Shown in pieces: positions 44,778-64,000 of a stretch of 64,000 bases of DNA. The stretch spans positions 806,001 through 870,000 of the forward strand of contig NZ_CP059493.1 in assembly GCF_014042015.1 (NCBI RefSeq), written 5' to 3'. The notes under the pieces are model-generated. The model did not search any database and was not told the DNA's origin. It was given only the letters and a program-made list of their open reading frames with translations. The translations under genes and the position numbers were made by a program. Within the stretch, counting starts at the first letter, position 1; every line of letters begins with the position of its first letter. This stretch comes from Actinotalea sp. JY-7876. GTDB taxonomy: Bacteria; Actinomycetota; Actinomycetes; Actinomycetales; Cellulomonadaceae.

Positions 44778-45249
44778 CGGGAACCCGGCCGACGGCGCGA
44801 GGGTCGTCGGCTATGCGCCCGGGGCGTGGGACCTCTTCCACGTCGGTCACCTCAACGTGCTGCGGCACGCGCGGGCGCAGTGCGACTACCTGGTCGCCGG
44901 GGTCGTCTCCGACGAGATGCTCGAGCTGGCCAAGGGTCGCGCGCCCATCATCCCCACCCACGAGCGCGCGGAGATCGTGCGACACCTCGACGTCGTCGAC
45001 GAGGTGTTCGTCGAGACGCAGCCGGACAAGCTCGAGACGTGGCGCCGGCGCCCGTTCGACGTCTTCTTCAAGGGCGACGACTGGCGGGGCACGCCGCAGG
45101 GGGCCGAGCTCGAGCGTCGCTTCGCGGAGGTCGGGGTGCAGGTCGTGTACTTCCCGTACACCGTCCACACCTCGAGCACGCTGCTGCGTCGGGCGCTGTC
45201 GGTGCTGACCCAGGTGCCGGTGGACGCGGGTCAGGCACGTCATGGCTGA
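44764..45249 (+). CDS. TagD-like cytidylyltransferase
   Basis: A 161-residue nucleotidyltransferase: GYAPGAWDLFHVGHLNVLRHARAQCDYLVAGVVSDE (the GxFDxFHxGH site), FFKGDDWRGTP and the terminal HTSSTLLRRAL (ISTTxIR-like). It resembles glycerol-3-phosphate cytidylyltransferases, which make CDP-glycerol; ethanolamine phosphate or another alditol phosphate are alternatives. It overlaps the sugar transferase gene by 14 nt. Together with the CDP-alcohol transferase two genes downstream it forms a supply-and-use pair for a phospho-alcohol substituent. Confidence 0.86.
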   Translation: MVRTDGNPADGARVVGYAPGAWDLFHVGHLNVLRHARAQCDYLVAGVVSDEMLELAKGRAPIIPTHERAEIVRHLDVVDEVFVETQPDKLETWRRRPFDVFFKGDDWRGTPQGAELERRFAEVGVQVVYFPYTVHTSSTLLRRALSVLTQVPVDAGQARHG

Positions 45250-45455: not shown

Positions 45456-46604
45456 GTGAGGATCGCACTCGTCGGGACCCGTGGGGTCCCCGCGCGCTAC
45501 GGCGGGTTCGAGACGTGCGTCGAGGAGGTCGGTCGCCGCCTCGTGGACCGTGGGCACTCGGTCACGGTCTACTGCCGTGGCGGCGACGAGGACGCCCGTC
45601 CCACCCACCTCGGCATGCGCCTCGTGCACCTGCCGGCCGTCCGCAGCCGCTCGCTGGAGACGCTCAGCCACACCGGCCTCTCGGTCGGGCACCTCGCGGG
45701 GCACCGCACGGACGCCGCCGTGGTCTTCAACGCGGCGAACGCGCCGTGGCTGCCGATCGTGCGCGCGGCGCGGATCCCGGTCGCCACGCACGTCGACGGG
45801 CTCGAGTGGCGGCGTGCCAAGTGGGGTCGCACCGGCCGCGAGTACTACCGGCGCGCCGAGGCGCTCGCGGTGCGCTGGTCGGACGCGCTCATCGCCGACG
45901 CCCAGGGCATCGCCGACTACTACCGCGAGCGGTTCGGCGTGCCGACCGAGCTGATCGCGTACGGCGCGCCGCTGGTGGCGCAGGCGTCGGACCGCCTCGG
46001 GGCGGCGGGGCTGGAGCCCGACCGCTACCACCTCGTCGTCGCACGCTTCGAGCCGGAGAACCACGTCGACGTCATCGTCGACGGCTACCGGCGCAGCGGC
46101 GCGCGGCTGCCGCTGGTCGTCGTCGGCTCGGCGCCGTACTCGGACGAGTACACGGCGCGGGTCCACTCCCTCGCCGACGCGCGCGTGCGCTTCCTCGGCG
46201 GCGTCTGGGACCAGCACCTCCTGGACCAGCTGTACGCGAACGCCCGCACGTACCTGCACGGGCACTCGGTCGGGGGCACCAACCCCTCGCTCCTGCGTGC
46301 GCTCGGTGCCGGCACCGCGACGACCGCGTTCGACGTGTCGTTCAACCGCGAGGTGCTCGGGACGAGCGGGCGCTGGTTCACCACGGCGGACGACGTCGCG
46401 CGCGAGGTCGACCTGGCCGAGCGCGACGTGGCCGGCGTGCGGCGCCGCGCCGCCGCGGCCCTCGCCGAGGCGGAGCGCTACGACTGGGACGACGTCGCCT
46501 CGCGCTACGAGGACCTGTGCGTGCGCCTGGCTGCCGGGGCGAGGGCTCGCGGCAGGTCGGGGCAGAGCAGGGCGGCATCCGGCCGGAAGGCGGCACGACG
46601 ATGA
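45456..46604 (+). CDS. glycosyltransferase (DUF1972 plus GT4)
   Basis: A 382-residue GT-B enzyme starting at GTG 45456 behind GAGGTGGGG. The N-terminus is the DUF1972 signature VGTRGVPARYGGFETCVEEVGRRL, the C-terminal half a GT4 domain (GTNPSLLRALGAGTATTAFDVSFNREVLG). Relatives are rhamnosyl- or galactosyltransferases of capsule and exopolysaccharide clusters. It is soluble or membrane-associated on the cytoplasmic side. Its stop overlaps the ATG of the next gene (ATGA). Confidence 0.9.
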   Translation: MRIALVGTRGVPARYGGFETCVEEVGRRLVDRGHSVTVYCRGGDEDARPTHLGMRLVHLPAVRSRSLETLSHTGLSVGHLAGHRTDAAVVFNAANAPWLPIVRAARIPVATHVDGLEWRRAKWGRTGREYYRRAEALAVRWSDALIADAQGIADYYRERFGVPTELIAYGAPLVAQASDRLGAAGLEPDRYHLVVARFEPENHVDVIVDGYRRSGARLPLVVVGSAPYSDEYTARVHSLADARVRFLGGVWDQHLLDQLYANARTYLHGHSVGGTNPSLLRALGAGTATTAFDVSFNREVLGTSGRWFTTADDVAREVDLAERDVAGVRRRAAAALAEAERYDWDDVASRYEDLCVRLAAGARARGRSGQSRAASGRKAARR

Positions 46605-51200: not shown

Positions 51201-53422
51201 TGGGTGGCGACACCACCGGTGGCGTCCAGCCGTACCTCGCCGGGACGGTGGACGAGGTCGCGGTCTACAGCCGTGCCCTGTCCGCCGAGACGGTGGCCGA
51301 GCACTGGTCGCTCGGCGCCGGGACGATCCCGGCGGTGCCGCCGGTCGCCTCGTTCACCGCGACGGCGGACGGGCTCCGCGTGGACGTCGACGGGTCGGCC
51401 TCGTCCGACCCGGACGGCACCGTCGCGTCGCACGCGTGGACCTTCGGCGACGGGGCCACGGCGACCGGCGCGACCGCGTCGCACGACTACGCCGTGGGTG
51501 GGACCTACGACGTCACCCTCACGGTGACCGACGACTCGGGGGAGACGGCGTCGACGACGCAGCAGGTCACCGTCGCGGCGCCCCCGGTCGAACCGGCCGG
51601 TCCGTTCGCCGCCGACGCCTTCGGGCGGACCCTCCCGAGCGGGTGGGGCACGGCCGACGTCGGCGGCGCCTGGTCGCTCGTCGGTGCCGCGTCGGCGTTC
51701 TCGGTCGCCGACGGGGTCGGACGCATGACGGTGCCGCGTGGCGGCGCGGGCGTCACCGCGGTGCTCGCCGGGGCTCCCTCGGACGACGCGGACGTGACGG
51801 CGCGGGTGGCGACGACGACCGTGGCGAACGGCGCGGGCGCGTTCTTCTCGCTCATCGGCCGTCGTGTGGGCGCGAACGACTACCGCGCCAAGGTCAAGAT
51901 CGCGCCGAACGGCGTGGTCACGCTGTACCTCAACCGGGTGACCGGTGCCGAGACGACCCTCGCCTCGCTCGCGGTGGCGCCCGGGGTGTCCTACGCGGCG
52001 GGCGACGCCCTGCGCATGCGGGTCACGGTCTCCGGCACGTCGCCGTCGACGCTGCAGGCCAAGGTGTGGGAGGACGGTCAGCCCGAGCCCGCGGACTGGC
52101 AGCTGACCGCCACGGACGAGACGGCGGCGCTCCAGACCGCGGGCGGCGTCGGGGCCATGGCGTACCTCGCGACCTCGACGACCAACGCTCCTGTGACGTT
52201 CACGGTCGACGACCTGCGCGCCGCCGGCGTCGGCGAGCCGCAGCCCGTGGAGAACCAGCCCCCGGTGCCGGCGTTCACGCACGCCGCGGAGGGCCTGGGC
52301 GTGACCTTCGACGCGAGCGGGACCACGGACGCGGACGGCACGGTCGCGCTCTACGGCTGGGACTTCGGTGACGGCACGCTCGGCACGGGCGCCACGCCGA
52401 CCCACACCTACGCCGCCGGCGGGACCTACTCGGTGACGCTCACGGCCACCGACGAGGACGGCGACGCCGCGTCCGTCACGCGTGCGGTCACGGTCGCCGC
52501 CCCGCCGCCGCCGGGACAGGCGCCGGTCGCGGCCTTCGGTGTGACGTCCGACGGCCTGTCGGTCGCCGTGGACGGTGCTGCCTCGACGGACGCCGACGGC
52601 ACCGTCACGGGGTACGCCTGGGACTTCGGTGACGGGACGACCGCGACGGGGGCCACCGCGACGCACACCTACGCCGCGGCGGGCCAGTACACCATCGTCC
52701 TCGTCGCGACCGATGACGACGGCCTGTCGTCCTCGGCGTCGCAGGTCGTCACGGTCGCCGGCCCGGGCCCGGAGCCCGCCGGACCCCTCGCGGCCGACGA
52801 CTTCGCACGGGACGTCACCGGCGGGTGGGGTGGCGCGGCGACGGGTGGGGCGTGGTCGCTCGTCGGTGCGGCGTCGTCCTTCTCGGTGGCGCAGGGGGCC
52901 GGCCGGATGGTCCTGCCGAGAGCGGGCGCCGGCGTGTCGGCGTTCCTGCCAGGCGTCTCCTCGACCTCGACGGACGTCCGCGTCCGGACCACCGTCGCGC
53001 CGGTGGCGGACGGCGGCGGGCTGTTCGTGTCGCTCGTCGGCCGCCGCGTGGGTGCGGCGGACTACCGAGCCAAGGTCAAGGTGGCCGCGAACGGTAGTGC
53101 GACGGTGTACCTGACGCGCGTGGACGGCGCCGAGACGACGCTCGCCGTCGGTGCGGTGCCGGGCGTGAGGCTCGCTGCCGGCGAGCAGCTGCACATCCGG
53201 CTCGAGGTGACGGGCACGTCGCCGACCACCCTGCGGACCCGCGTCTGGAAGGACGGCACACCCGAGCCCACCACGTGGCAGCTCACCGCGACCGACTCCA
53301 CGGCGGCGCTCCAGGCCGCGGGCGGCGTCGGGCTCGTCTCCTACGTGTCCGCGTCGTCCACGACCTTCCCGCTCACCGTGACGTTCGACGACCTCGTCGC
53401 GACGGATCCGTCGGCGCCGTGA
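48266..53422 (+). CDS. giant secreted propeller/Fn3/LamG/PKD protein
   Basis: A 1718-residue exported protein; signal peptide about 1-34 (TGLVVPAGTAAAD). Domains in order: beta-propeller-like repeats (about 50-445; SPDGSRLYIGGEFTQVNG), Fn3 (about 457-552), LamG/concanavalin 1 (560-782) and 2 (799-1012; both with YNDGQWHHVV or YNDGAWHHVV), PKD1 (1024-1108), a 200-residue beta-sandwich module A (1112-1323), PKD2 (1329-1412), PKD3 (1417-1498; YAWDFGDGT), and module B (1505-1711), a duplicate of A. No membrane anchor or LPXTG is visible. Carbohydrate binding or matrix adhesion is inferred. The ATG at 48266 is chosen for its signal peptide. The stop overlaps the GTG of a glycosyltransferase gene. 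Confidence 0.88.
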   Translation: MLPLTHVLRRAVAAAAGTVLVLTGLVVPAGTAAADTTPSVPGVPATVSADALPTVQVDGVVWDQVVVGDTVYVAGSFATARPSGAAPGTSTVARRNLLAFDIRTGQLISSWAPTTNAQVRAIEASPDGSRLYIGGEFTQVNGASVWRIAALNRATGALIPSFVPKPDATVRAIAVTADAVYFGGLFNAVGTQTRTRLAAASPSGELLPWAPAAAGASGVNALLVSPDGSEVVVGGSFTSLNGSSDPGFGLGSVDPVTGALLPFAANTRWIRNGGRDGAITHLSGDGDFVYGSGYTFGRQSGTLEGTFAAHWGGGEIEWIEDCHGDTYSAFPVGEVIYQASHKHYCGNQDAFHQTEPWQMRLGTAVTRAVGGTITREPYDYTNFEGNPRPSQLHWYPDMDTGTYTGQNQGPWSVVGTSQYVVMGGEFQNVSGRPQQGLVRFAVPGVAPEDMGPSLSGGKFDLSATSPGDRAVRLRWTANMDPDNEDLTYSLIRNSNTAAPIYQVVQRSRFYDRPTMGYVDKGLTPGATYRYRLRATDPAGNLAWSDTVTVTVSGTATAGSDYAETVLADEPVAHWRLGEASGPWLRDATGWDDLRARAGATPGAPGALAGETDTALALDGSAQAHASTTPNIESPTTFSVEAWIRTTTTQGGRIVGFSSAETGTSSYADRQVYMDNQGRLRFGIRPYSGSRVVASSTQSYNDGQWHHVVGTADAGGTHLYVDGVRVASAAPAQGRMYGGYWRVGGDSLQGWTNRPTNDNFTGDVDEVAVYDRALTHAQVATHLVAAGRTSPLPAPPADEYGAAVAAAEPELYWRLDETSGTAAGDSGAYATPGTFRGAVALGAPGALADGTGTGVRLDGSSARVVSDRSFASPRVYSTELWFSTTTTAGGKLIGLGNNQTGLATSYDRQVVMGTDGRLSFGVFVANAFTNVTTPAAYNDGAWHHVVATQSAQGMRLYVDGELVGENPQSAARSLTGWWKVGGDTTGGVQPYLAGTVDEVAVYSRALSAETVAEHWSLGAGTIPAVPPVASFTATADGLRVDVDGSASSDPDGTVASHAWTFGDGATATGATASHDYAVGGTYDVTLTVTDDSGETASTTQQVTVAAPPVEPAGPFAADAFGRTLPSGWGTADVGGAWSLVGAASAFSVADGVGRMTVPRGGAGVTAVLAGAPSDDADVTARVATTTVANGAGAFFSLIGRRVGANDYRAKVKIAPNGVVTLYLNRVTGAETTLASLAVAPGVSYAAGDALRMRVTVSGTSPSTLQAKVWEDGQPEPADWQLTATDETAALQTAGGVGAMAYLATSTTNAPVTFTVDDLRAAGVGEPQPVENQPPVPAFTHAAEGLGVTFDASGTTDADGTVALYGWDFGDGTLGTGATPTHTYAAGGTYSVTLTATDEDGDAASVTRAVTVAAPPPPGQAPVAAFGVTSDGLSVAVDGAASTDADGTVTGYAWDFGDGTTATGATATHTYAAAGQYTIVLVATDDDGLSSSASQVVTVAGPGPEPAGPLAADDFARDVTGGWGGAATGGAWSLVGAASSFSVAQGAGRMVLPRAGAGVSAFLPGVSSTSTDVRVRTTVAPVADGGGLFVSLVGRRVGAADYRAKVKVAANGSATVYLTRVDGAETTLAVGAVPGVRLAAGEQLHIRLEVTGTSPTTLRTRVWKDGTPEPTTWQLTATDSTAALQAAGGVGLVSYVSASSTTFPLTVTFDDLVATDPSAP

Positions 53423-54600
53423 GGCGTCGCGCCCCCGCGCCGGACGTCCGGGCCGCGGGCCGGACGGTCCTCGTCGCCCACCCGGGCGCCGAGCTCTACG
53501 GCTCGGACCGCGTGATGCTCGAGAGCGTGGCGGGCTTCCGCGAGGCCGGCTGGCGGGTCGTCGTCACGCTGTGCGACGACGGTCCGCTGGTCGCCGAGCT
53601 GCGGGCGCTGGGCGCCGAGGTCCGGCGCACGCGCTCGCCCGTGCTGCGCAAGAGCGCCCTGCGTCCCGCGGGCTTCGGCCTCCTCGTCGCGGACACCGTC
53701 CTCGGTGCGGCACGGGGCGTGGCCCTCCTCGGGCGGCTCCGGCCCGACGCGGTGTACGTGAGCACCGTGACGGTCCCGCTGTGGACGATCCTGGCCCGGC
53801 TCATGCGGCGCCCGGTGGTCGTCCACGTGCACGAGGCGGAGACCGGCGCGCCCGCGATCGTGCGCCGCCTCATGGCGCTCCCGCTGGTGCTCGCCACGAG
53901 CGTCGTCGTGAACAGCCGGTTCAGCGTCGACGTCCTGCGCGCGTCGCTGCCCGCCGCGGTGCGCCGGGCGGTCGTCGTCGACAACGGGGTGCCCGGGCCC
54001 GCCGAGGTCGTCCCGGCGCGCCGCACGATCGACGGGCCCGTCCGCCTGCTGTACGTGGGGCGCCTGTCGGCCCGCAAGGGTGTCGACGTCGCGGTCGAGG
54101 CGCTGGCCGAGCTCCACCGGACCGGGTGCCCGGCTCGGCTGGACGTGGTCGGCGCCGTGTTCCCCGGCTACGAGTGGTTCGAGCAGGGGCTGCGCGACCG
54201 CGTGAAGGAGCTGGGCCTCGAGGGCTCCGTGCACCTGCGGGGCTTCCACGCCTCGGTGTGGCCCTTCCTCGCGGACGCCGACGTCGCCGTCGTGCCCTCC
54301 GTGGTCGACGAGCCCTTCGGCAACACGGCGGTGGAGGCGGTGCTGGCGGCGCGTCCGGTCGTCGTGAGCGAGACCAGCGGGCTGCGCGAGGCGTCCGCGG
54401 GCTACGGCTCGGCGCAGCAGGTCCGCCCGGGGGACCCGGTGGCCCTGGCGGGTGCCGTGCGGCGGGTGCGGGACGCGTGGCCGGAGTTCTCGCGCGCGGC
54501 GGCCGCCGACGCGCTCACCGCGCGCGACCGGCACGACCCCGCCCGGTACCGCGGCCGGGCCGTGGCCGCCCTCGAGGCCGCGGTGAGCGGCGCGCCGTGA
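53419..54600 (+). CDS. glycosyltransferase family 4
   Basis: A 393-residue GT-B protein from GTG 53419, overlapping the giant gene by 4 nt (GTGA). N-terminal VLVAHPGAELYGSDRVMLESV, and the C-terminal donor domain LLYVGRLSARKGVDVAVEAL with SVVDEPFGNTAVEAVLAARPVVVSETSGLRE, containing the EPFGN/E7-like motif. It adds a sugar to the lipid-linked repeat; the sugar is not predictable. Its stop overlaps the flippase GTG by 4 nt. Confidence 0.92.
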   Translation: MRRRAPAPDVRAAGRTVLVAHPGAELYGSDRVMLESVAGFREAGWRVVVTLCDDGPLVAELRALGAEVRRTRSPVLRKSALRPAGFGLLVADTVLGAARGVALLGRLRPDAVYVSTVTVPLWTILARLMRRPVVVHVHEAETGAPAIVRRLMALPLVLATSVVVNSRFSVDVLRASLPAAVRRAVVVDNGVPGPAEVVPARRTIDGPVRLLYVGRLSARKGVDVAVEALAELHRTGCPARLDVVGAVFPGYEWFEQGLRDRVKELGLEGSVHLRGFHASVWPFLADADVAVVPSVVDEPFGNTAVEAVLAARPVVVSETSGLREASAGYGSAQQVRPGDPVALAGAVRRVRDAWPEFSRAAAADALTARDRHDPARYRGRAVAALEAAVSGAP

Positions 54601-56084
54601 GCGGTCGCGACGTGGCGCCTGCCGACCAGGCGGCGGTGGGCAGCGGGACGGCGGCCTCGGCGGTCCAGTGGAACTCGATCGCCGTCGCGGGGCGCCAGGC
54701 GTTCCTGCTCGTCTCCAGCGTCGTGCTGGCCCGGGTGCTCGGCCCCGAGACCTACGGCGTCATCAGCGCGGCGACGATCTACGTCACGTTCACCACGCTG
54801 CTGCTCGACCAGGGGCTCGCGTCCGCCCTGATCCAGCGGCCCGTGCTGAGCCGGTGGGCCGGTGGCGCCGTCGCGAGCGCGAACCTCGTCGCGGGCGTGC
54901 TCCTCGCCGGCCTGACCGTCGTCGTCGCGCCCTGGGTGGCCGACTTCTTCAGGGTCGAGGAGCTGACCACCGTGCTGCGCCTCCTCGGCCTCGGCCTCGT
55001 GGTCAAGTCCCTGGCCATCGCGCCCCGGGCCATGCAGGCGCGGTCGCTGACGTTCCGCGCGATCGCGGTCGCCGACGTGTCGGGCGCCGCCGCGGGCGCC
55101 GCCGCGGGTGTCGTGGCCGCGCTCTGCGGAGCCGGGGCCACCTCGATCGTGTTCCAGGTCGTCACGGTCGACGCGGTCGTCGCGACCATCCTCCTGTGGT
55201 CGGCGCGCGGGCCGGTGCCGAACCTGCGTGTGAGCGAGGTCCGTGCGCTGCTGCCCTTCGGCCTGCGGGTCATGGCCACGGACGGCATCGCGTACTTCTC
55301 GCGCAACATCGACAACATCCTCGTGGGACGGGTGCTCGGCGTCGTCGCGCTGTCGTACTACGGGATGGCGTACCGCGTCCTCGTCATCCCGGTGCAGCTG
55401 GTCGGTCAGACCGTCTCCCGTGTGATGTTCCCGGCGTTCTCCCGGCTCGCGGGGCGCCGCGAGCTCCTCGCCGACGCGCTCGTCAAGGCGACGGCGATGC
55501 TCGCCGTCGTGACCGTGCCGGCCATGGGGCTGCTCGCGGTCGCGTCCCCGGAGCTGGTCGAGGTGGTGCTCGGGCGGCAATGGCTGCCCTCGGCGCCGCT
55601 CCTGACGGTCCTCGCGGTGGCGGGCGCGCGCGAGACCGTGCTGTACGTGACCGGGCCGCTCCTCAAGGCGACGGGCGAGGTCTCCCTGCTCGTGCGGTAC
55701 GAGCTCCTCGCGACCGCGGTCCAGGTCGCCGGCATCGTCGTCGGGCTGCGCTGGGGCGTCCTCGGCGTGGCGATCGGGTACACGGTCGCCGGGTTCGCAC
55801 TCAGCCCCGTCCTGCTGCACCTGCAGCGGCGCCTCGCGGGTGTCACGGCGGGTCAGCAGGCCCGCGCGGTGCTGCCCCCGCTGCACGCCGCCCTGTGGGG
55901 GGTGGCCGCCTACGCGCTCGTGGCGCAGTCGTCGGCGGGCCCGGCCCTGACGCTGGCGACCGGTGCCGCGGCGTACGGCGCCGCGGCTGCCGTCGTGCTC
56001 GCGACGGTGCACCGGAGGTCGACCGCGCGCACGGGCCGATGGGTGCTCGCCGTGCTGCCCGGTCGCGGCAGGTCGTCCGCCTAG
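54597..56084 (+). CDS. Wzx-like polysaccharide flippase
   Basis: A 495-residue MOP-superfamily protein with about 12-14 membrane helices: WNSIAVAGRQAFLLVSSVVLARVLGPETYGVISAA at the N-terminus, FGLRVMATDGIAYFSRNIDNILVGRVLGVVALSYYGMAYR in the middle and paired helices to the end. It flips lipid-linked repeat units across the membrane in Wzx/Wzy-type synthesis. The O-antigen ligase/polymerase-like gene at 61400 would be its Wzy partner. It is translationally coupled to the upstream glycosyltransferase. Confidence 0.92.
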   Translation: MSGRDVAPADQAAVGSGTAASAVQWNSIAVAGRQAFLLVSSVVLARVLGPETYGVISAATIYVTFTTLLLDQGLASALIQRPVLSRWAGGAVASANLVAGVLLAGLTVVVAPWVADFFRVEELTTVLRLLGLGLVVKSLAIAPRAMQARSLTFRAIAVADVSGAAAGAAAGVVAALCGAGATSIVFQVVTVDAVVATILLWSARGPVPNLRVSEVRALLPFGLRVMATDGIAYFSRNIDNILVGRVLGVVALSYYGMAYRVLVIPVQLVGQTVSRVMFPAFSRLAGRRELLADALVKATAMLAVVTVPAMGLLAVASPELVEVVLGRQWLPSAPLLTVLAVAGARETVLYVTGPLLKATGEVSLLVRYELLATAVQVAGIVVGLRWGVLGVAIGYTVAGFALSPVLLHLQRRLAGVTAGQQARAVLPPLHAALWGVAAYALVAQSSAGPALTLATGAAAYGAAAAVVLATVHRRSTARTGRWVLAVLPGRGRSSA

Positions 56085-56106
56085 TGCGGTCCCGCGGAGC
56101 CCGGCG

Positions 56107-57276
56107 CTAGCGCGTGCGCGGAGGGCGCCGGGTGCGCGAGCCGCGGGGCCGCGCGTCCAGCACGCTGTCGTAGAGGTCCTCGAGGCGTGCCGTCTGCGTG
56201 CGCACGTCGAAGTCGCGCAGCACGCGCTCGCGGCCCGCCGCGCCGAGCGCAGCCGCCCGAGCCGGGTCGTCGAGGAGCGTGCGCAGATGGGCGGCGAGCG
56301 CCCCGACGTCGCCCTCGGGGGCGAGGAGGCCGGTCTCGCCGTCCACGACGGCCTCGGGGACCCCGGCGTGGCGGTACGCCACCACCGGCAGCCCGTGCCG
56401 GGCCGCCTCGAGGAAGACGATGCCGAAGGCCTCCTCCTGACCCGTCGCGGTCGTGCGTGACGGGCCGCAGAAGACGGCCGCCCGGGCCAGCTCGCGCGCG
56501 ACGCCCTCGGAGGGGAGCCGGCCGAGCATCTCGACCGCCAGGCCCGCGCGCGCGGCCTGCTCCTCGAGCTGGCGGCGCAGCGGCCCGTCGCCCACGACCC
56601 GCACGCGGAGGTCCCGCCCGCGGTCCAGGTGCTCGACCGCCGCCAGCAGGTCCGCGGGACCCTTGACGTCGACGAGTCGGCCGACGAAGACGATCCCGTC
56701 CCTCGTCGCCGCGGGTTCCACGGCGCCGGCCACGGGCACGCCGATGTGGTGCACCCGCACCTTCTCCGGGGGCGCTCCCAGCTCGACGAGGCGTCCGGCG
56801 AGATGCTGCGAGACAGCGACGAGGAGGTCCGCGTAGGCGAACACCGCCTGCAGGCGTTCGACGTAGCGCCGTCCGGCCTCGCCGCGCGTGGGCTCCTGGG
56901 TGACGTCGTACCCGTGGAAGGTGACGACGAGCGGGAGCCCGAGCCGGCGCGCGACGGGCAGGACACCCACGGCGCTCGTGCCGAAGTGGGCGTGGACCAG
57001 GGCCGCGCCCTCGCGGCGCAGGAAGCGCTCGTACACGCCGCGGTGACCCGTCGCCCGGCTCAGCCGGCGGGTGGCCCGGCCCACGAGCCCGTCCGGGAAC
57101 GGCGCGAGGTCGGCGCGCGCGATGCCGTCGGCGACCTGACGCTCGCCGATCGTCACGGGCCGCCACCGGGTCATCGCGGCCAGCTGGTCGCGCACGAACG
57201 TCTGGGACGGCGCGAGCCAGGTCGATTTCCAGACGGCGACCACCGGGCGGGCCACGTCCGTCGCGGCGTCGTGCAC
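56107..57276 (-). CDS. glycosyltransferase family 4
   Basis: A 389-residue GT-B enzyme from GTG 57276 behind GGAGGGTTC. VHAHFGTSAVGVLPVARRLGLPLVVTFHGYDV, then GIVFVGRLVDVKGPADLLAAVEHL and EEAFGIVFLEAARHGLPVVAYRHAGVPEAVVDGETGLL, typical of GT4 exopolysaccharide transferases. It faces the flippase gene convergently with a 22-nt gap and is divergent from the beta-helix gene, where a CRP-like palindrome lies 79 bp upstream of its start. Confidence 0.93.
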   Translation of the reverse strand: MHDAATDVARPVVAVWKSTWLAPSQTFVRDQLAAMTRWRPVTIGERQVADGIARADLAPFPDGLVGRATRRLSRATGHRGVYERFLRREGAALVHAHFGTSAVGVLPVARRLGLPLVVTFHGYDVTQEPTRGEAGRRYVERLQAVFAYADLLVAVSQHLAGRLVELGAPPEKVRVHHIGVPVAGAVEPAATRDGIVFVGRLVDVKGPADLLAAVEHLDRGRDLRVRVVGDGPLRRQLEEQAARAGLAVEMLGRLPSEGVARELARAAVFCGPSRTTATGQEEAFGIVFLEAARHGLPVVAYRHAGVPEAVVDGETGLLAPEGDVGALAAHLRTLLDDPARAAALGAAGRERVLRDFDVRTQTARLEDLYDSVLDARPRGSRTRRPPRTR

Positions 57277-57664
57277 GAACCCTCCTCGGTACGGCCTCGG
57301 GACGCGGCGGTGACGTGGTGACGCGGGCCCCGGCCACCTCCGCCCGTGGACACGGGATGTGATCCGCATCACATCCGAGCCCGGGCCGTGCGCGCCGGGC
57401 CGTGCCGCCGGTCCGCCCGCGAAGGGTAGCAAAACGGGCACCACCTGCAACGATGCGCGCGCGGCCGCAGGGTGTCCCGCGCGGCCGCGCAGGACGCGCG
57501 AGCACGGGTGTCGTCGTGACCCTGGTGGTCATCACCCGATCGGCCTAGCGTCTGTCACGGCCTCCCGCCGCCCGGCGGGAGACGGCCGCGCGGTCGACGC
57601 CCGGCGGGCACCGGAGCCCGCCGTCGGCGCCCGCCGGCCGGCCTGTCGCACGGGGGGACGATCG
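57277..57664. other. divergent regulatory region with CRP-type site
   Basis: 388 nt between a glycosyltransferase gene (minus) and a beta-helix gene (plus). It holds the perfect TGTGA-N6-TCACA palindrome at 57358-57373 and a TAGCGT box near 57547 that may be the -10 of the plus-strand gene, leaving a leader of about 110 nt. No gene is supported and no GEMM motif is present here. Confidence 0.6.
57355..57376. promoter_or_regulatory. perfect CRP/GlxR-type operator
   Basis: GGATGTGAT-ccgc-ATCACATCC is a 22-bp perfect dyad containing TGTGA-TCCGCA-TCACA, the CRP-family consensus. It lies 79 bp from the minus-strand glycosyltransferase start and about 170 bp before the plus-strand -10 candidate. 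cAMP-dependent control of the glycan locus is the expected reading. Confidence 0.7.
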
Positions 57665-59902
57665 ATGCGGATGCACGCCACCAGTGGCCGGCCGGCCACC
57701 CGGCGGGGCGTCGCGCGCGCTTTCGCTCTGCTCCTCGCCCTGACCGTCACCGCCGGCGCCGGGCCGTTGCCCGGCGGGGCCGCCGAGCGGGTCAGCCGGT
57801 CGGCCGCGGTGAGCCCTGCAGCGACGTCCGGCGCGCCGGCCGCGGCCCCGGCGATGCGCCCCGCCGCCGACGTGTCGACGATCCGCACCGTGACGCCGGT
57901 GCGGCTCCTGACCTCGCGTCTGGAGCCGGGGGAGTCGGTGACGGTGCGGGTGCCCGCCGTTCCTGCCGAGGCGTCCGCCGCGGTGCTCAACGTGACGGCG
58001 GCGGACGCCAGCGCCGTCACGACGCTGAGCACCTGCGGTGCGGCGCAGACCTGCCCCGCCGAGTCGATGCTGGCGGCGTCACCCGGACCCGTCACGCCCG
58101 GTCAGGTCCTCGCCCCGCTCAGCGAGGGGGGCGAGGTCACCCTGAGCAACCGCAGCGGCGGCGTGACGGTCTACGTCGACCTCAACGGCTTCGTGCTCGA
58201 CGCGACGACGGCCGACCAGGACGGGTTCGTCCCGGTCGACCCGCGCCGGATCATGTCCTGGCAGGGCGTCGGCGTGCAGCAGACCGTGACGCTCACGGTC
58301 CCCGACGTCCCGGACGGCGCCACGGCGGTGGCGCTCGACCTCGGTTACGCCGCAGCGACGCGTCGCGGCTACGTCTCCGCGTGCCCGGCCGGCACCGCGG
58401 TCCGCGACTGCGCCAGGACCTCGGTGCTCAACCCGGCCCCGGGTGCCAACCGGTCGAACTTCGCCGTGGTGGGCCTCGGTGGCCCGCGCGGCGACCAGGT
58501 GGTGCTCTACAACCACCGCGGCTCCGTCCGGCTCAACGCGGACCTCCAGGGGTTCTTCGTGGCCGCCGACACCGGGAAGGTGCACGCCGCCTCGGCCCCG
58601 CTCCTGGAGGCGACCCTGGCCGCGGGGGAGTCGCGCACGATCCGCGCCGCCGGTGCGCCCGCCGGCGCGACGGCCGCCAAGATCCAGGTCCGCGCCCACG
58701 ACGCGCAGGGGGGCACCGCCCTCACGGTGTGCCCCGGGACGCAGGTCGCGGGCGCCTGCGCCGCGACCTCGGTCCTGAACCCGTACCCCGGCCGCGACAG
58801 CACCAACGTCGCGTACGTGCGCCTCGGGGAGGACGGTGCGCTCACCGTGCGGAACACCTCGGCGAGCGTCGGTGTGACGATGACGCTCCTGGGCCTCGTG
58901 GGACCGCTCGACGCGCCCGCCGCGCCACCCGCCGCTCCCGTGCCGCCACCCGCCGCGCCCGCGCCGACGCCGACGCCGACGCCGGCGCCGAGCCCGGCGC
59001 CCCCGCCCGCCGTGGGCGCCGTGGAGCCGACGGCGGCCACCACCGGTGTGCCCGACGGCACGCCGCTCACGCGGCACGACGGGGACCTGGTGATCACCGA
59101 GCCCGGGACCGTCATCGACGGCAAGGACATCCACGGCTTCGTCTCGATCCGCGCGGCCGACGTCACGATCCGCAACTCCGTGGTCCGGGGGAGCGGGACC
59201 GGCTCCTACAGCACCGGTCTGGTGAGCTGCCTCGACGCGGCCTGCCGCGGCGCCGTCATCGAGGACACCACCCTCGTGCCCAAGCAGCCGTCGCCGTGGA
59301 TCACGGGCATCCTCGGGCACGACTACACCGCCCGGCGCGTGGACGTGCACCACGTCGTGGACGGCTTCGGCATCTTCGACACCGGCAACGGCGGGGGACC
59401 CGTCGACGTGGTGATCGAGAGCAGCTGGTGCCACGACCTCAGCTACTTCGCCCGCGACCCGCAGCAGGACGGCGGGCCGAGCCACAACGACTGCATCCAG
59501 ATCCAGGGCGGTTCGGCGATCCGCATCACGGGCAACAGCCTCGAGTCGTTCATGTCGACCGCCGTGGGCGACCAGAGCTACGACGCCCGCAACCGGGGCG
59601 CCGGCCTCATGGTGACGCCGACGGTCGCGCCGGTGACCGGTGCCACGGTGACGAAGAACTGGTTCGACGGGGGCTACGCCTCGGTCTCGGTCTCGCGCGG
59701 TGGCTACGAGCGCATGCACTTCGGCACGCTCACCGGGAACCGTTTCGGGCGGAACCAGTTCGACCACGGACGTGGCTCCCGGTACGTCATCCGGGTGCGC
59801 GAGGGCGTCACGTTCGACTCGTCGCTCACGGGGAACGTCTGGGCGGACGGGGCCGGACCGCTCGCGCTCGGGCGCGACCTCGGCATCCGGTACGACCCGT
59901 GA
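57665..59902 (+). CDS. secreted right-handed beta-helix protein with three N-terminal repeats
   Basis: A 745-residue exported protein (ATG 57665; ATG 57671 also possible). Signal peptide about 1-40. Three related beta domains of about 110 residues follow (about 72-182, 185-300, 305-417), each with a Cys pair and a SVLNP/ESMLAAS-type motif and ending in VYVDLNGFVL, LNADLQGFFV or VTMTLLGLVG. A Pro/Ala/Thr linker (418-455) leads to a parallel beta-helix (459-745) with TVIDGKDIHGFVSIRAADVTI, LGHDYTARRVDVHHVVDG and HNDCIQIQGGSAIRITGNSLES. The fold is that of pectate-lyase-like or glycan-processing proteins. It may trim, modify or bind the exopolysaccharide. Confidence 0.85.
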   Translation: MRMHATSGRPATRRGVARAFALLLALTVTAGAGPLPGGAAERVSRSAAVSPAATSGAPAAAPAMRPAADVSTIRTVTPVRLLTSRLEPGESVTVRVPAVPAEASAAVLNVTAADASAVTTLSTCGAAQTCPAESMLAASPGPVTPGQVLAPLSEGGEVTLSNRSGGVTVYVDLNGFVLDATTADQDGFVPVDPRRIMSWQGVGVQQTVTLTVPDVPDGATAVALDLGYAAATRRGYVSACPAGTAVRDCARTSVLNPAPGANRSNFAVVGLGGPRGDQVVLYNHRGSVRLNADLQGFFVAADTGKVHAASAPLLEATLAAGESRTIRAAGAPAGATAAKIQVRAHDAQGGTALTVCPGTQVAGACAATSVLNPYPGRDSTNVAYVRLGEDGALTVRNTSASVGVTMTLLGLVGPLDAPAAPPAAPVPPPAAPAPTPTPTPAPSPAPPPAVGAVEPTAATTGVPDGTPLTRHDGDLVITEPGTVIDGKDIHGFVSIRAADVTIRNSVVRGSGTGSYSTGLVSCLDAACRGAVIEDTTLVPKQPSPWITGILGHDYTARRVDVHHVVDGFGIFDTGNGGGPVDVVIESSWCHDLSYFARDPQQDGGPSHNDCIQIQGGSAIRITGNSLESFMSTAVGDQSYDARNRGAGLMVTPTVAPVTGATVTKNWFDGGYASVSVSRGGYERMHFGTLTGNRFGRNQFDHGRGSRYVIRVREGVTFDSSLTGNVWADGAGPLALGRDLGIRYDP

Positions 59903-60091
59903 CGGCTCCGCCGTGCGACCGCGCGGCGCGGCGGGGCGGCGGTCCTGCACGTGGCGGTGGCGCCCGGTGCCCGGTGCATGACCCGGAAACTGCGCGGGCG
60001 AGCCATTCGCGGACGGTCCCGAGATATTCCGTCGTAATGTCCGAATAACCCGGACCGGGCTGATCCGTGCGGGTGACGCCACCTCGACGTG

Positions 60092-60121
60092 CTGGACCGG
60101 CGGAAATGGCCCACGTACGAT
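60092..60121 (+). promoter_or_regulatory. promoter of the riboswitch-controlled gene
   Basis: CTGGAC (60092-60097), 18 nt, TACGAT (60116-60121). The predicted transcription start (about 60128) coincides with the 5' edge of the aptamer. Confidence 0.5.
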
Positions 60122-60127
60122 CCGGTG

Positions 60128-60212
60128 GTCCACGAGAATGGCAAACCTGTCGCGAGGCAGGGGCGCAAAGCCATGGAACCCCCGCGGTCCGCCAGGCTAC
60201 CGAATCGACGGA
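60128..60212 (+). ncRNA. cyclic di-GMP-I (GEMM-I) riboswitch
   Basis: The conserved core is present: GGCAAACC, a short CTG...CAG stem with a GCGA loop region, GGGCGCAAAGCC, a second GC-rich stem (CCCCCGCGGTCC), then CCAGGCTACCGAA closing the aptamer. This is the GEMM-I order, with the tetraloop/receptor-type first hairpin and the CGCAAAGCC ligand-binding junction. The 3' end runs into GGAG (60210-60213), the ribosome-binding site for GTG 60222, so control is probably translational. Confidence 0.93.
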
Positions 60213-60221
60213 GCACCTCCT

Positions 60222-61463
60222 GTGCTTGAGCCTCGACCGTCCCGCTCGGCCCGGCGCGGCGCACGCGCGCCCTCCGGCCGTCGCGCGATGGTGGCGCTCG
60301 CCCTGGCCGGCGTGCTGGTCGCCACACCGACGGCCGCCGCGGAGGTCGCCCCGACGCCCACCGTCGCGGCTCGCGCCACCGTGGCCGTCCCGGCGGCCAC
60401 GCCCTCGGCCGGCGATGTCCTCGCGCCCGCGGACGCGGCGCCCTTCGCGGCCGTCACCCTGACGGGGGCGCCGGTTCCGGGCGCGCTCGACATGCCCGCC
60501 GCCGCGGCGTCGAGCAGCCAGGTCCCGTCGGCGTACGCGCTCGCGCCGGCCCCCCTCGTGACGGCGCCGGCCCCGGACGTGGTGAAGCCGGACGCGTCGA
60601 GCACGGGCGTGAGGGCGGGCTCGCGGCTCCAGACCCATCGTGGGGACATCGTGGTGACGCAGCCCGGCACGGTGCTGGAGAACCTGGACGTGTACGGCTT
60701 CGTGACCGTGAAGGCCGCCGACGTGACCATCCGCAACACGCGCGTGCGTGGCAGCGGTCCGGGGTCCTTCGACACCGGTCTGATCAACGCCAACGACGCG
60801 CGCGTCAAGAACCTGGTGGTCGAGGACGTCACGCTGGTCCCCGACTTCCCGTCGTACTGGATCAACGGGATGCTCGGTCACGACTACACCGCGCGGCGCG
60901 TGAACACCTGGAACGTGGTCGACGGGTTCGGCATCTACAACATCCACGGCACGGCGGCGAACGTGCGGGTCGAGTCGAGCTACGTCCACGACCTGGCCTA
61001 CTTCTCGCCGGACCCGAACCACTCGGACAACCAGACGCACAACGACGCGATCCAGATCCAGGGTGGCTCCAACATCCAGATCCTCGGGAACACGCTGTCG
61101 GTGTGGCGGTCCACGACGGCCGGGACGCAGAACTACGCATACCCGCAGGGTGGATTCGGTGTGATCCTGACGCCGAACGTCAATGCGGTGACGAATTCTC
61201 GGATCGACGGGAACTGGGTGGACGGGGCGCACATCCCGATCAAGCTGGTGACGTCCCAGAAGACCGGTCCGATGAACTTCGGTGAGGTCACCAACAACAC
61301 GTTCGCCCGGGACATGCGCAACACGCCCATGGCGGGGAAGAACAACTGGTTCACGGTGCTCACCACGCCCGACCTGACGGTCATCACCAGCGGGAACGTC
61401 TACGCGGACGACGGCACAGCCATCGAGGTCCGCCGCGACAGCGGCACGGGCACCGCTCCCTGA
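60222..61463 (+). CDS. secreted right-handed beta-helix protein under c-di-GMP riboswitch
   Basis: A 413-residue protein from GTG 60222, placed just after the riboswitch. Signal peptide about 1-40 (MVALALAGVLVATPTAAAE). An Ala/Pro/Thr-rich segment to about residue 125 precedes a parallel beta-helix (about 130-413): GTVLENLDVYGFVTVKAADVTI, INGMLGHDYTARRVNTWNVVDGFGIY, SDNQTHNDAIQIQGGSNIQILGNTLS. It is a paralogue of the C-terminal domain of the preceding gene but lacks the three repeats. Probably acts on or binds the extracellular glycan. Its 3' end overlaps the convergent ligase gene by 64 nt. Confidence 0.87.
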   Translation: MLEPRPSRSARRGARAPSGRRAMVALALAGVLVATPTAAAEVAPTPTVAARATVAVPAATPSAGDVLAPADAAPFAAVTLTGAPVPGALDMPAAAASSSQVPSAYALAPAPLVTAPAPDVVKPDASSTGVRAGSRLQTHRGDIVVTQPGTVLENLDVYGFVTVKAADVTIRNTRVRGSGPGSFDTGLINANDARVKNLVVEDVTLVPDFPSYWINGMLGHDYTARRVNTWNVVDGFGIYNIHGTAANVRVESSYVHDLAYFSPDPNHSDNQTHNDAIQIQGGSNIQILGNTLSVWRSTTAGTQNYAYPQGGFGVILTPNVNAVTNSRIDGNWVDGAHIPIKLVTSQKTGPMNFGEVTNNTFARDMRNTPMAGKNNWFTVLTTPDLTVITSGNVYADDGTAIEVRRDSGTGTAP

Positions 61464-62710
61464 CCGGCCGCCGGCCCGGTGCCGGGCCGGGTGCTGGCCA
61501 CCCCGAGCGCCAGCGCCACCCACAGGATCATGCCGACCGCGGACCGCGACGCGAGGGCGCTGTAGGTGAGCGGCAGGAGGAACGCGATCAGCGCTCCCTG
61601 GCGCGCCCCCGGGAGGCGGTCCCCACGCGTCCAGGCCCGGACCACGAGCACGGCCTGGGCACCGAAGTACAGGACGGCGAAGACGGTCCCGATGTCGACC
61701 GCGTACATGAGGAACGAGTTCTCGAGGCTCGTGGCGAGGCCACCCTGCGACGCGATCCGGTAGCTCGACGTCAGGCCGTGGCCGACGACCGCGTACTCCC
61801 GCCACGTCCGGCCGAAGAAGCTCAGGGCGTCGGTGCGGGCGCCGGTGGATCCCGTGTCGTCCGCGAAGCGTTCCCCGACGCCCTCGACGAGGCTCGTGGA
61901 CAGCAGCGCCGCGGCGCCCCCGGCGAGGGCGCACAGCCCGAGCAGCCGGGCGTGCGCCGGCGCCGGGGAACGCAGCACCACCCACACGGCCACGACCGCG
62001 ATGACGACGACGCCCGAGCGTGACTGGGTGATCGCGACGCCGGCGGCGAAGAGCGTGACGAGGGCCAGCTGGAGCGACGTGCGCCGCAGTCCCACGATGA
62101 GCGGCGCGGTCACGCACAGGAACATGGAGAGCGTCAGCGGGTGGTCGAACGTGGCCATCCAGCGGTCGAAGCCCTCGCGCCGGAACCACCACCGGGTCTC
62201 GTGCGAGCTCTGGTACAGCAGGATGCTCCCCGCGAACCACTGCACGACGGCGAGCGCGGCGGCCGCGCCGCCCAGCGCGAGCAGCGCCGTCCGCACCTGG
62301 GTCAGGCGCCCCGCGTCCCCGTCGACGACCGCCAGCACGAGGAGGAAGAGCGCGAGCGGGGCCACGACGACGTCGAGCAGGAGGGCGAGGCCACCCGAGC
62401 CGGCCTGCACGGTGGTGAAGGCCGCGACCGCCGTCACGAGGCCGAGGGTAAGCACGAGCAGGACGTGCTCGCCGGCCACCTGGGAGAGGCGCCGGGGCGC
62501 GTGCATGGCCTGCGCGACGAGCATGGCGACGACCAGCCAGGCGGCCGGGTGCATGCCGAGCGGGCCCGTCTCGTGCCCGGTGACGAGGTGGCCGGCTGCG
62601 GCGGGGATGCCCACCCACAGGCCGAGGATCGCGACGAGGGTCACGACCGGTCGGCGGCGCGTCGCCCAGGCGAGCGCCGCGCACCCACCCGCCCAGAGTG
62701 CGAGCAGCAT
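61400..62710 (-). CDS. O-antigen ligase/polymerase family membrane protein (Wzy-like)
   Basis: A 436-residue polytopic protein with about 11-12 helices and one large periplasmic loop. Motifs: FDRWMATFDHPLTLSMFLCVTAPLIVGL, GVAITQSRSGVVVIAVVAVWVVL and the loop WREYAVVGHGLTSSYRIASQGGLATSLENSFLMYAVDIG, typical of Wzy_C/WaaL domains. It polymerises or ligates lipid-linked repeats outside the membrane. ATG 62710 follows the kinase stop by 1 nt, so it is in an operon with the kinase on the minus strand. The C-terminal 21 codons overlap the convergent beta-helix gene. Confidence 0.87.
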   Translation of the reverse strand: MLLALWAGGCAALAWATRRRPVVTLVAILGLWVGIPAAAGHLVTGHETGPLGMHPAAWLVVAMLVAQAMHAPRRLSQVAGEHVLLVLTLGLVTAVAAFTTVQAGSGGLALLLDVVVAPLALFLLVLAVVDGDAGRLTQVRTALLALGGAAAALAVVQWFAGSILLYQSSHETRWWFRREGFDRWMATFDHPLTLSMFLCVTAPLIVGLRRTSLQLALVTLFAAGVAITQSRSGVVVIAVVAVWVVLRSPAPAHARLLGLCALAGGAAALLSTSLVEGVGERFADDTGSTGARTDALSFFGRTWREYAVVGHGLTSSYRIASQGGLATSLENSFLMYAVDIGTVFAVLYFGAQAVLVVRAWTRGDRLPGARQGALIAFLLPLTYSALASRSAVGMILWVALALGVASTRPGTGPAAGQGAVPVPLSRRTSMAVPSSA

Positions 62711-62711
62711 C

Positions 62712-64000
62712 TCAGCGGTCGGCGCGGACGGACCGTTCCGGGGCCGCCTCACCGGCCGTGCGGCGTTCGGCCCCCGGGTCCTCGTCGGCCGGGGCTGGGC
62801 GCCAGACTGGCGTGCCCGGAGCCAAGGGCAGGCCGTCCGCGGGTGTCTGCTCGCGGGTCGTCGGCGAAGCCTCCTGGTCCTGCGCGTCGCCCGGGGCGCG
62901 CGGCGCGCGCCCCGTCGTCGCGTACGCCGAGGCGCCGTATCCTCCCGCGGTCACCGCGCTCGGCGCGCCGTTGAGGATCGTGCCCGCCAGCGGTGCACCG
63001 ACCGCGGCGAGCCCTTCCACGGCGGCGCGTGCCTGCTCGCGCGTCGTCCCGCCGTACCGGACGACGAGGACGACGATGTCCGCGTGGGTCGCGACGACCG
63101 ACGCGTCGGTGACCGGCAGCACGGGAGGGGTGTCCACGACGATCGTCTCGAAGCGTCCGCGGAGCTCGGTCACCAGCTCCCGCATCGCGTCGCTGCCGAG
63201 CAGCTCGGACGGGTTCGGTGGCAGCGTGCCGGCGGCGAGCACCTGGAGGCCGTGCTGGCCCCAGGGCTGCAGCACGTCGTCGACCTTCACGGCACCGGCC
63301 AGGACGTTGGTCAGCCCGGCGGAGCCCTCGATCCCGAGCCGCTGCGCGACCATGGGCCGGCGCATGTCCGCCTCCACCAGCAGGACGGACCTGCCGGCCT
63401 CGGCGAGCGTGATCGCGAGGTTGCAGGCGGTCGTCGTCTTGCCGTCGCCCGGGACCGCGGACGTGACCACCACGACCTGCATCCGCTTCGTCACGGCGCT
63501 GAACGTCAGGTTCGTCCGCAGCTGGCGGTACGCCTCCGCCCGGGGCGAGCCCGGCTCCGCGTCCACGATGAGCAGCTCGCCGGCCCCACCGCGGCGCCGG
63601 CGCCCTTCGGCGCCGATCGTGGCGAGCGTGGGCAGCCCGGTCGCCCGCTTGAGGTCGTCGAGGCTGCGGACGGTGCGGTCCAGCATCTGGCGGGCGATCG
63701 ACAGCGCCAGCCCGAGGGCGATCCCGGCGAGCGCCGCGACGCCGATGTTGAGCGTCGTCCGCGGCGAGATGGGCTCGGGGTTCAGCGTCGGCCCCGAGAT
63801 CACGGTGAGCGACACGCTGGCCCCGCTCGCCGCATCCGTGCTGTCGAGGCGGGAGATCAGCGGGCCGAACTCGGTGGCGATCGCCTCGGCGATCCGCAGC
63901 GCGCGGTCGGTCTCGGTGTCCGTCACGGTCGCGGTGAGCAGGATCGTCTCCGGGTCCACCAGCGCCGACACGCGCGACGTCACCTCGGCGGGCGTGAGGT
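62712..64000 (-). CDS. Wzz/BY-kinase polysaccharide co-polymerase and tyrosine autokinase (partial, N-terminus beyond window)
   Basis: The frame remains open to the right edge (LTPAEVTSRVSALVDPETI), so the true start lies outside; at least 429 residues are visible. A Wzz-type region ends in a membrane helix (IGVAALAGIALGLALSIARQML). The kinase domain has Walker A VPGDGKTTTACNLA, Walker A' LLVEADMRRP and Walker B VVDTPPVLPVTDA. The tail is Pro/Ala/Glu/Arg-rich and lacks the usual Tyr cluster; only YGASAY lies near the end of the core. It controls chain length and export of exopolysaccharide. Confidence 0.9.
   Translation of the reverse strand, partial: LTPAEVTSRVSALVDPETILLTATVTDTETDRALRIAEAIATEFGPLISRLDSTDAASGASVSLTVISGPTLNPEPISPRTTLNIGVAALAGIALGLALSIARQMLDRTVRSLDDLKRATGLPTLATIGAEGRRRRGGAGELLIVDAEPGSPRAEAYRQLRTNLTFSAVTKRMQVVVVTSAVPGDGKTTTACNLAITLAEAGRSVLLVEADMRRPMVAQRLGIEGSAGLTNVLAGAVKVDDVLQPWGQHGLQVLAAGTLPPNPSELLGSDAMRELVTELRGRFETIVVDTPPVLPVTDASVVATHADIVVLVVRYGGTTREQARAAVEGLAAVGAPLAGTILNGAPSAVTAGGYGASAYATTGRAPRAPGDAQDQEASPTTREQTPADGLPLAPGTPVWRPAPADEDPGAERRTAGEAAPERSVRADR

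Follow-up and report, generated by a model that had tools for sequence, protein, structure and literature searches.

A c-di-GMP-I riboswitch before a beta-helix protein gene in an Actinotalea exopolysaccharide locus, and a candidate regulon that includes bldC

The stretch of DNA analysed here (the window, 64,000 nucleotides (nt) of Actinotalea sp. JY-7876, contig NZ_CP059493.1) carries a cyclic diguanosine monophosphate (c-di-GMP) riboswitch aptamer of the c-di-GMP-I (GEMM-I) class. It lies directly before the gene of a right-handed beta-helix protein, in a locus for the synthesis of a glycan (Table 1). Aptamers of the same class recur across the genus before related beta-helix genes, before bldC and before several other kinds of gene.

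A c-di-GMP-I aptamer in the window

The core of a c-di-GMP riboswitch had been proposed at this place from the letters alone (the original prediction). The Infernal search with RF01051, chosen beforehand as a result that could overturn the proposal, was positive: with this model alone, run over the whole genome, the aptamer scored 58.7 bits on the plus strand (gathering cut-off 35, E = 8.5e-11; 60130–60204 of the window, 866130–866204 of the genome). A cmscan run of the 64 kb gave three matches at gathering level, the aptamer and two tRNAs, so that the window holds one aptamer. In this listing, which omits one lower-scoring match of the same clan at the aptamer, it appears under RF03167 (59.8 bits, cut-off 59, 60131–60205, plus strand).

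For comparison, 85 aptamers were collected from 19 Actinotalea genomes (two to nine per genome, 79 of them outside the JY-7876 genome). The window RNA carries G, A and C, the canonical letters for c-di-GMP, at three contacts that we take to be G20, A47 and C92 in Vc2 numbering. Across the genus these columns hold G20 in 83, A47 in 84 and C92 in 84 of the 85 sequences, and 81, the window's among them, have all three. The P2 loop is a GNRA tetraloop (GCGA in the window); its columns 34 and 37 are G and A in all 85, and column 36 is G or A in all 85. Moreover, P2 and P3 are supported by covariation, with changes on both sides in 8 of the 17 predicted pairs. By RF01051 score the window aptamer ranks 45th of the 85, about midway in a genus whose values run from 39.4 to 72.9 bits.

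A few sister aptamers deviate at the contacts. Two of the 85 (L089 and L114) have A at the G20 position, and the first of these sits before a beta-helix gene; a G20-to-A change is linked to recognition of cyclic GMP-AMP (cGAMP) in GEMM-Ib. An aptamer before a GGDEF cyclase (L138, 2489–2581, minus strand) has C at the A47 position and is possibly an altered or weakened sensor.

Anatomy of the leader

The gene starts with GTG at position +18 from the aptamer end, and the starts of the nine aptamer-preceded beta-helix genes of the genus, the window's included, all fall between +14 and +18. A Shine-Dalgarno sequence overlapping the 3' end of the aptamer had been predicted; GGAG does lie directly beside the outer P1 strand, while the core itself is not overlapped. 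The further claim, that a promoter places the transcription start at the aptamer edge, fared unevenly. A generic sigma-70 promoter scan of the leader found none, because the candidate TGGACC-17-TACGAT matches the consensus at only 8 of 12 positions. On the other side, 18 of the 85 genus aptamers, the window's included, have a TANNNT motif whose first letter stands at precisely −15 relative to the end of the P1 5' strand. Within the interval −18 to −9 it occurs in 19 and is absent from 66, whereas shuffled sequences gave 4.5 on average and never more than 10. Since this spacing recurs above shuffles, it gives partial, comparative support to a start near the aptamer edge, which should lie at about 60127–60128.

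Transcription attenuation was rejected, as no terminator-like site was found in 59800–60400. A longer helix that would join segment GGUGGUCC of the 5' leader to GGAGCACC around the Shine-Dalgarno sequence was provisionally set aside, because the predicted start falls inside the segment and folding did not favour this pairing over other structures.

The beta-helix protein and its locus

The AlphaFold2 model of the product (predicted local distance difference test, pLDDT, 87.2; predicted template modelling score, pTM, 0.89) has a right-handed beta-helix in its last 287 residues (127–413). Most of the 50 fold matches listed are polysaccharide lyases, hydrolases, epimerases, phage depolymerases and tailspikes. 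A pectate lyase is among them, in agreement with the pectate-lyase fold originally assigned to this protein. A relative in genome G005 is 72% identical over residues 104–413. The protein is probably secreted, because its N-terminus looks like a signal peptide, as judged by reading and not by a prediction tool. The paralogous beta-helix gene upstream (42% identity) has no riboswitch.

The exopolysaccharide cluster of the original prediction was likewise recovered: a Wzx-type flippase, a Wzy-like protein, an autokinase, glycosyltransferases (GTs) and an initiating transferase surround the aptamer, and judged by these families the locus is of the Wzx/Wzy glycan type. The Wzy/VpsF-like protein scores below both curated cut-offs; in the autokinase, AAA_31 exceeds its cut-off and Wzz falls just under. 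A GT2 also belongs to the locus, and Mfd follows it. In A. subterranea, beta-helix genes adjoin a Bac_transf gene and pth. The frames 54668–56110 (plus), 56081–57535 (minus) and 54402–56966 (minus) match no families and were rejected, being replaced on the basis of codon-position GC.

Table 1. Features of the window and of selected sister loci; positions are those of the window unless a locus is named.
Feature	Position	Strand	Basis or remark
c-di-GMP-I (GEMM-I) riboswitch aptamer	60130..60205	+	RF01051 and RF03167 matches, contact columns, covariation
Contact letters G, A, C	60140, 60167, 60200	+	alignment columns 21, 49, 91
Candidate −35, TGGACC, 17-nt spacer	60093..60098	+	sequence; CTGGACCGG shared, at this position, by L090 and L094
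Candidate −10, TACGAT	60116..60121	+	TANNNT at −15 in 18/85 genus aptamers
Outer P1 5' strand, GUC	60128..60130	+	complementary to GAC 60207–60209; near likely mRNA 5' end
Outer P1 3' strand, GAC	60207..60209	+	pairs with GUC 60128–60130
Shine-Dalgarno sequence GGAG, adjoining P1	60210..60213	+	sequence; comparably placed in beta-helix relatives
Probably secreted beta-helix protein, GTG start, 413 residues	60222..61463	+	AlphaFold2 model, fold matches
Upstream paralogous beta-helix protein	57665..59902	+	ATG 57665 likely, though the longest frame opens at 57359
Perfect CRP-type palindrome TGTGATCCGCATCACA	57358..57373	+	between divergent GT4 and first beta-helix genes, if the later starts are right
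Initiating sugar-phosphate transferase	43251..44777	+	PF02397
Cytidylyltransferase-like protein	44764..45249	+	PF01467
GT4/DUF1972 glycosyltransferase	45456..46604	+	family match
Large surface protein, laminin-G and PKD domains, 1989 residues	47453..53422	+	family matches
GT4 glycosyltransferase	53275..54600	+	family match
Wzx-type flippase	54597..56084	+	PF13440
GT4 glycosyltransferase, start uncertain	56107..57276	−	family match
Wzy/VpsF-like polymerase or ligase	61400..62752	−	PF04932 26.6 bits vs 31.7; NF038256 51.9 vs 150
Chain-length determinant and tyrosine autokinase, continuing beyond the window	62712..63998	−	TIGR01007 160.6 bits, cut-off 108
Polysaccharide lyase 14 gene	L127 1..930	−	in G004, with a c-di-GMP-I aptamer 43 nt before its start
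Protein of ~136-residue type	L091 1862..2272	−	example
Protein of ~136-residue type	L098 2829..3236	+	example

Sister aptamers and their targets

Six aptamers exceed the RF01051 cut-off in the JY-7876 genome. They precede a small open reading frame (ORF) of 49 residues, a short ORF ahead of a gene for a ~132-residue protein with a signal peptide, the window's beta-helix gene, a long-form and a short-form bldC, and a gene for an EAL protein (PF00563, E = 4.1e-59). The genome has 16 GGDEF and 12 EAL matches and is therefore rich in c-di-GMP turnover.

Throughout the genus, target classes were assigned by phmmer against seeds. Genes for BldC follow 32 of the 85 aptamers, in all 19 genomes (L010, L011 and 30 further loci); NF033787 identifies one member as BldC (L124; 103.1 bits, cut-off 77), the others being assigned by phmmer similarity. 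Small ORFs of the ARWAA type account for 17 sites in 17 genomes, the ~136-residue type for 14 sites in 14, beta-helix proteins for nine in nine and EAL proteins for three in three. The ten unclassified sites include one GGDEF protein (PF00990), one DUF7793 protein, one polysaccharide lyase 14 (L127, Table 1), a PKD protein with a GH26 match below cut-off, two that by eye resemble diverged ARWAA-type small ORFs, and one (G005_C31_206) where the contig ends after 63 codons resembling the N-terminus of the window protein.

An initial scan of genome contigs that used just the window protein gave no relative; a protein search found beta-helix matches in 11 of the 19 genomes. In ten of these 11, counting the contig-end case, an aptamer precedes a gene of this kind; the exception is G003, which has a single weak match. 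As in the window, a second beta-helix gene in the same orientation is found no more than ~1.5 kb upstream in eight of the ten; G009 has none there, and G005 could not be assessed.

Two of the small target types have features of their own. The ARWAA proteins (~50 residues) end in LPxQ, the ATG of L007 lying at +16 after its aptamer, with 16 further genus loci of this kind; to the eye alone, they bear a faint likeness to the C-terminus of BldC. The ~136-residue proteins begin like signal peptides, are encoded 54 to 254 nt behind the aptamer and often follow a short ORF; the one in L091 has no Pfam or NCBIfam family.

CRP-type sites near the aptamers

The best match to the CRP-type pattern TGTGA-N6-TCACA within 200 nt upstream of each aptamer was scored out of 10. 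Nineteen of the 85 reached 9 or 10, 12 of them perfect, compared with a fraction of 0.0012 in shuffles and none of 242 downstream control windows. Sites scoring at least 9 precede all 11 short bldC aptamers and none of the 21 long ones, a split made from residues after the list of sites had been seen and among related sites that are not independent. They also precede six of nine beta-helix aptamers and two of nine others, and none of the ARWAA (17), ~136-residue (14), EAL (3) and contig-end (1) cases. The window's own leader has no CRP-type site, its best match within 300 nt being 6 of 10. The JY-7876 genome contains seven perfect sites in 3.5 Mb, as against one for the reversed pattern; one of the seven precedes its short bldC aptamer, and another is the palindrome at 57358–57373 in the window (Table 1). 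A single cyclic nucleotide monophosphate (cNMP)-binding protein was found in this genome.

Direction of control and alternative explanations

Our explanation of the locus as a whole, to which we give slightly better than an even chance, is a riboswitch that begins with transcription at P1 and switches off translation of a beta-helix matrix enzyme. The aptamer would form essentially the entire 5' leader of the beta-helix mRNA, with transcription beginning at, or a few bases from, the P1 5' strand. The RNA would fold into P1, P2 and P3, and binding of c-di-GMP would stabilize P1; as the P1 3' strand adjoins the Shine-Dalgarno sequence, the ligand state would alter ribosome access. High c-di-GMP would thus occlude the ribosome-binding site, and a drop would allow an enzyme to be made that cuts or remodels the cell's own exopolysaccharide. 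Translational control through a P1 beside the Shine-Dalgarno sequence is most likely, being the simplest reading of the leader. The OFF direction is held narrowly, at a little over one half; we favour it because of this adjacency and by analogy with RbmB and gbpA, discussed below. The presence of EAL (three sites) and GGDEF (one site) proteins among the targets supports c-di-GMP as the ligand. A link from c-di-GMP to matrix processing may be inferred, with the reservation that fold similarity by itself does not show activity. Cellulomonas, as described in PMC7804937, solubilizes its curdlan matrix and uses it as a carbon source when nitrogen is available, which would fit an enzyme produced to cut the matrix when needed.

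Several results weigh against this explanation. P1 was left out of the RNAalifold consensus, and its inner CG/CG columns are so nearly invariant that they are uninformative on pairing. In the main register, at least three outer P1 pairs form in 47 of the 85 aptamers, which is just modestly above shuffled sequences (mean 37.5, maximum 42), and the outer P1 of the window pairs one register further out. No systematic fold switch was found across the 85 leaders: the mean value for an unpaired Shine-Dalgarno sequence is 0.45 in free folds and 0.38 with the aptamer forced, and forcing lowers accessibility by more than 0.2 in 21 leaders and raises it by more than 0.2 in nine. In the window the corresponding values are 0.06 and 0.15, a slight shift the ON way. 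There the aptamer-forced fold lies 8.7 kcal/mol above the free minimum free energy (MFE), and in just 13 of the 85 leaders is it within 3 kcal/mol of the MFE; these energies describe secondary structure, tertiary and ligand contributions being outside the model. Furthermore, EAL and GGDEF targets imply opposite signs of control if homeostasis is the aim.

The opposite sign, in which c-di-GMP binding would free the Shine-Dalgarno sequence of the same riboswitch, falls somewhat short of an even chance in our estimate. Without ligand, GGAGCAC would pair with the start-codon segment GUGCUU, and formation of the aptamer would shift the balance. The window's Shine-Dalgarno sequence is indeed paired in the free fold and gains from the forced aptamer, as does that of L094 (0.02 to 0.23), whereas the last of the three close relatives, L090, shows a drop (0.11 to 0.08). 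L094 keeps the window's GAGCAC/GUGCU complementarity around the start, and L090 retains it as GCAC/GUGC, the loops measuring 5, 4 and 3 nt; it is, however, common to close relatives only and may reflect their start codons. An EAL target under an ON switch would constitute negative feedback, but over all 85 leaders the forced aptamer slightly lowers mean accessibility.

Whichever the sign, the beta-helix protein could be a structural matrix protein or adhesin and not an enzyme, and an adhesin is indeed among the fold matches listed, a further point against a matrix enzyme. We regard this as unlikely: most of the listed matches act on polysaccharides, the target of another aptamer is a polysaccharide lyase 14, and invariant D and H columns would fit an active site or a binding site, without proving one.

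It is very improbable that the RNA truly belongs to the c-di-GMP-I-GGC variant (RF03167) and recognizes a ligand other than c-di-GMP. The GGC name presumably denotes a G at the A47 position, and the RF03167 consensus GCGAAGCC has G there where the window's GCAAAGCC has A; the column holds G in none of the 85 genus aptamers, and genes of c-di-GMP turnover are among the targets. The variant model does score about 1 bit higher than RF01051, exceeding its cut-off by 0.8 bits, and one sister aptamer also passes it (65.1 bits). We nevertheless rejected the GGC label on the A47 contact letter. Since the contact letters are canonical, the window RNA is best filed as an ordinary c-di-GMP-I riboswitch, the slightly higher-scoring label being misleading. 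Least credible of all is the view that the resemblance to a riboswitch is accidental or a relic and that the sequence plays no part in beta-helix gene expression, for which little speaks beyond the mid-genus score and the better free fold, and against which stand the covariation, the kept −10 spacing and the aptamers before beta-helix genes in nine of 19 genomes, plus one contig end, out of 11 with a beta-helix match.

Distribution beyond the genus and significance

Actinotalea belongs to the Cellulomonadaceae (NCBI taxonomy). An RF01051-type match is present in 96 of 200 genomes of this family, spread over seven of 25 genera including Actinotalea itself, and in 38 of 246 genomes of the class. 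Among 20 hand-picked family sites from six other genera, seven, in five genera, are followed by bldC and one by a beta-helix relative of the window protein (L224, phmmer 5e-39). Two further target proteins of this sample were scanned, giving one GH26 match below cut-off and one PKD domain at cut-off. Small ORFs ending in VPxQ, similar to the ARWAA type, also follow aptamers in other genera. In 73 loci around beta-helix relatives (up to 6 kb on each side) an aptamer was found in all five from Actinotalea and in none of the 68 others, which makes the coupling of aptamer and beta-helix gene a trait of the lineage rather than of the protein family.

The window riboswitch itself is of a known class, and the noteworthy part is the regulon, with bldC and matrix proteins in it. 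In the literature searched we found no report of bldC under a c-di-GMP riboswitch, which is weak evidence of absence as most subscription literature lay outside the search; nor did that literature yield a report of c-di-GMP leaders combined with CRP-type sites in actinobacteria. As a tentative model, doubtful when taken whole, we propose that in Actinotalea, and partly in other Cellulomonadaceae, a riboswitch regulon would couple BldC, secreted proteins that modify the matrix, conserved small proteins and c-di-GMP-turnover enzymes. Short bldC and many beta-helix genes would also be gated at the promoter by a regulator of the CRP type, so that a signal of the cyclic AMP (cAMP) type would set transcription, c-di-GMP would set translation, and the RNA would begin at P1. 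One signal may thereby tie matrix handling to a developmental regulator in a soil actinomycete. This gives a testable model linking exopolysaccharide turnover, development and c-di-GMP in an actinomycete, and the 85 natural leaders present one aptamer fitted to several kinds of gene almost without a separate expression platform.

Comparison with known systems

The window RNA resembles other c-di-GMP-I riboswitches (RF01051) in score, P2/P3 architecture, GNRA P2 loop and canonical G/A/C contacts. It differs from the usual members of the class in its very short leader, with a predicted mRNA 5' end near P1 and a P1 adjoining the Shine-Dalgarno sequence, and its relatives differ from known ones in their targets, which are beta-helix proteins, bldC and small ORFs. 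With the GGC variant it shares a narrowly passed cut-off but not the consensus G at the A47 position.

Two systems of Vibrio cholerae offer partial parallels. RbmB, the lyase of the Vibrio polysaccharide (VPS), is a matrix enzyme described as needed for dispersal (PMC7768729). It is 14–15% identical to the window protein, and many other folds tie with it in Z score; the likeness is one of fold, and RNA control is predicted here. For gbpA, PMC4545359 describes a putative riboswitch, Vc1, with transcription driven by CRP-cAMP and inhibited by c-di-GMP, the inhibition being independent of Vc1. The Actinotalea relatives similarly bring a putative c-di-GMP riboswitch and CRP-type control together; unlike in gbpA, the CRP-type sites are sequence predictions, and they lie at relatives and not at the window leader.

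The closest counterpart of the regulator behind many sister aptamers is Streptomyces BldC, of the same NF033787 family (L124). In Streptomyces, according to PMC6428758, a text in which the word riboswitch occurs 0 times, the BldD protein mediates the action of c-di-GMP on development, and a predicted cyclase gene, cdgE, is activated by BldC. In Actinotalea the aptamer sits in the leader of bldC itself, and c-di-GMP seems to act directly on both bldC and the matrix proteins, at their mRNAs.
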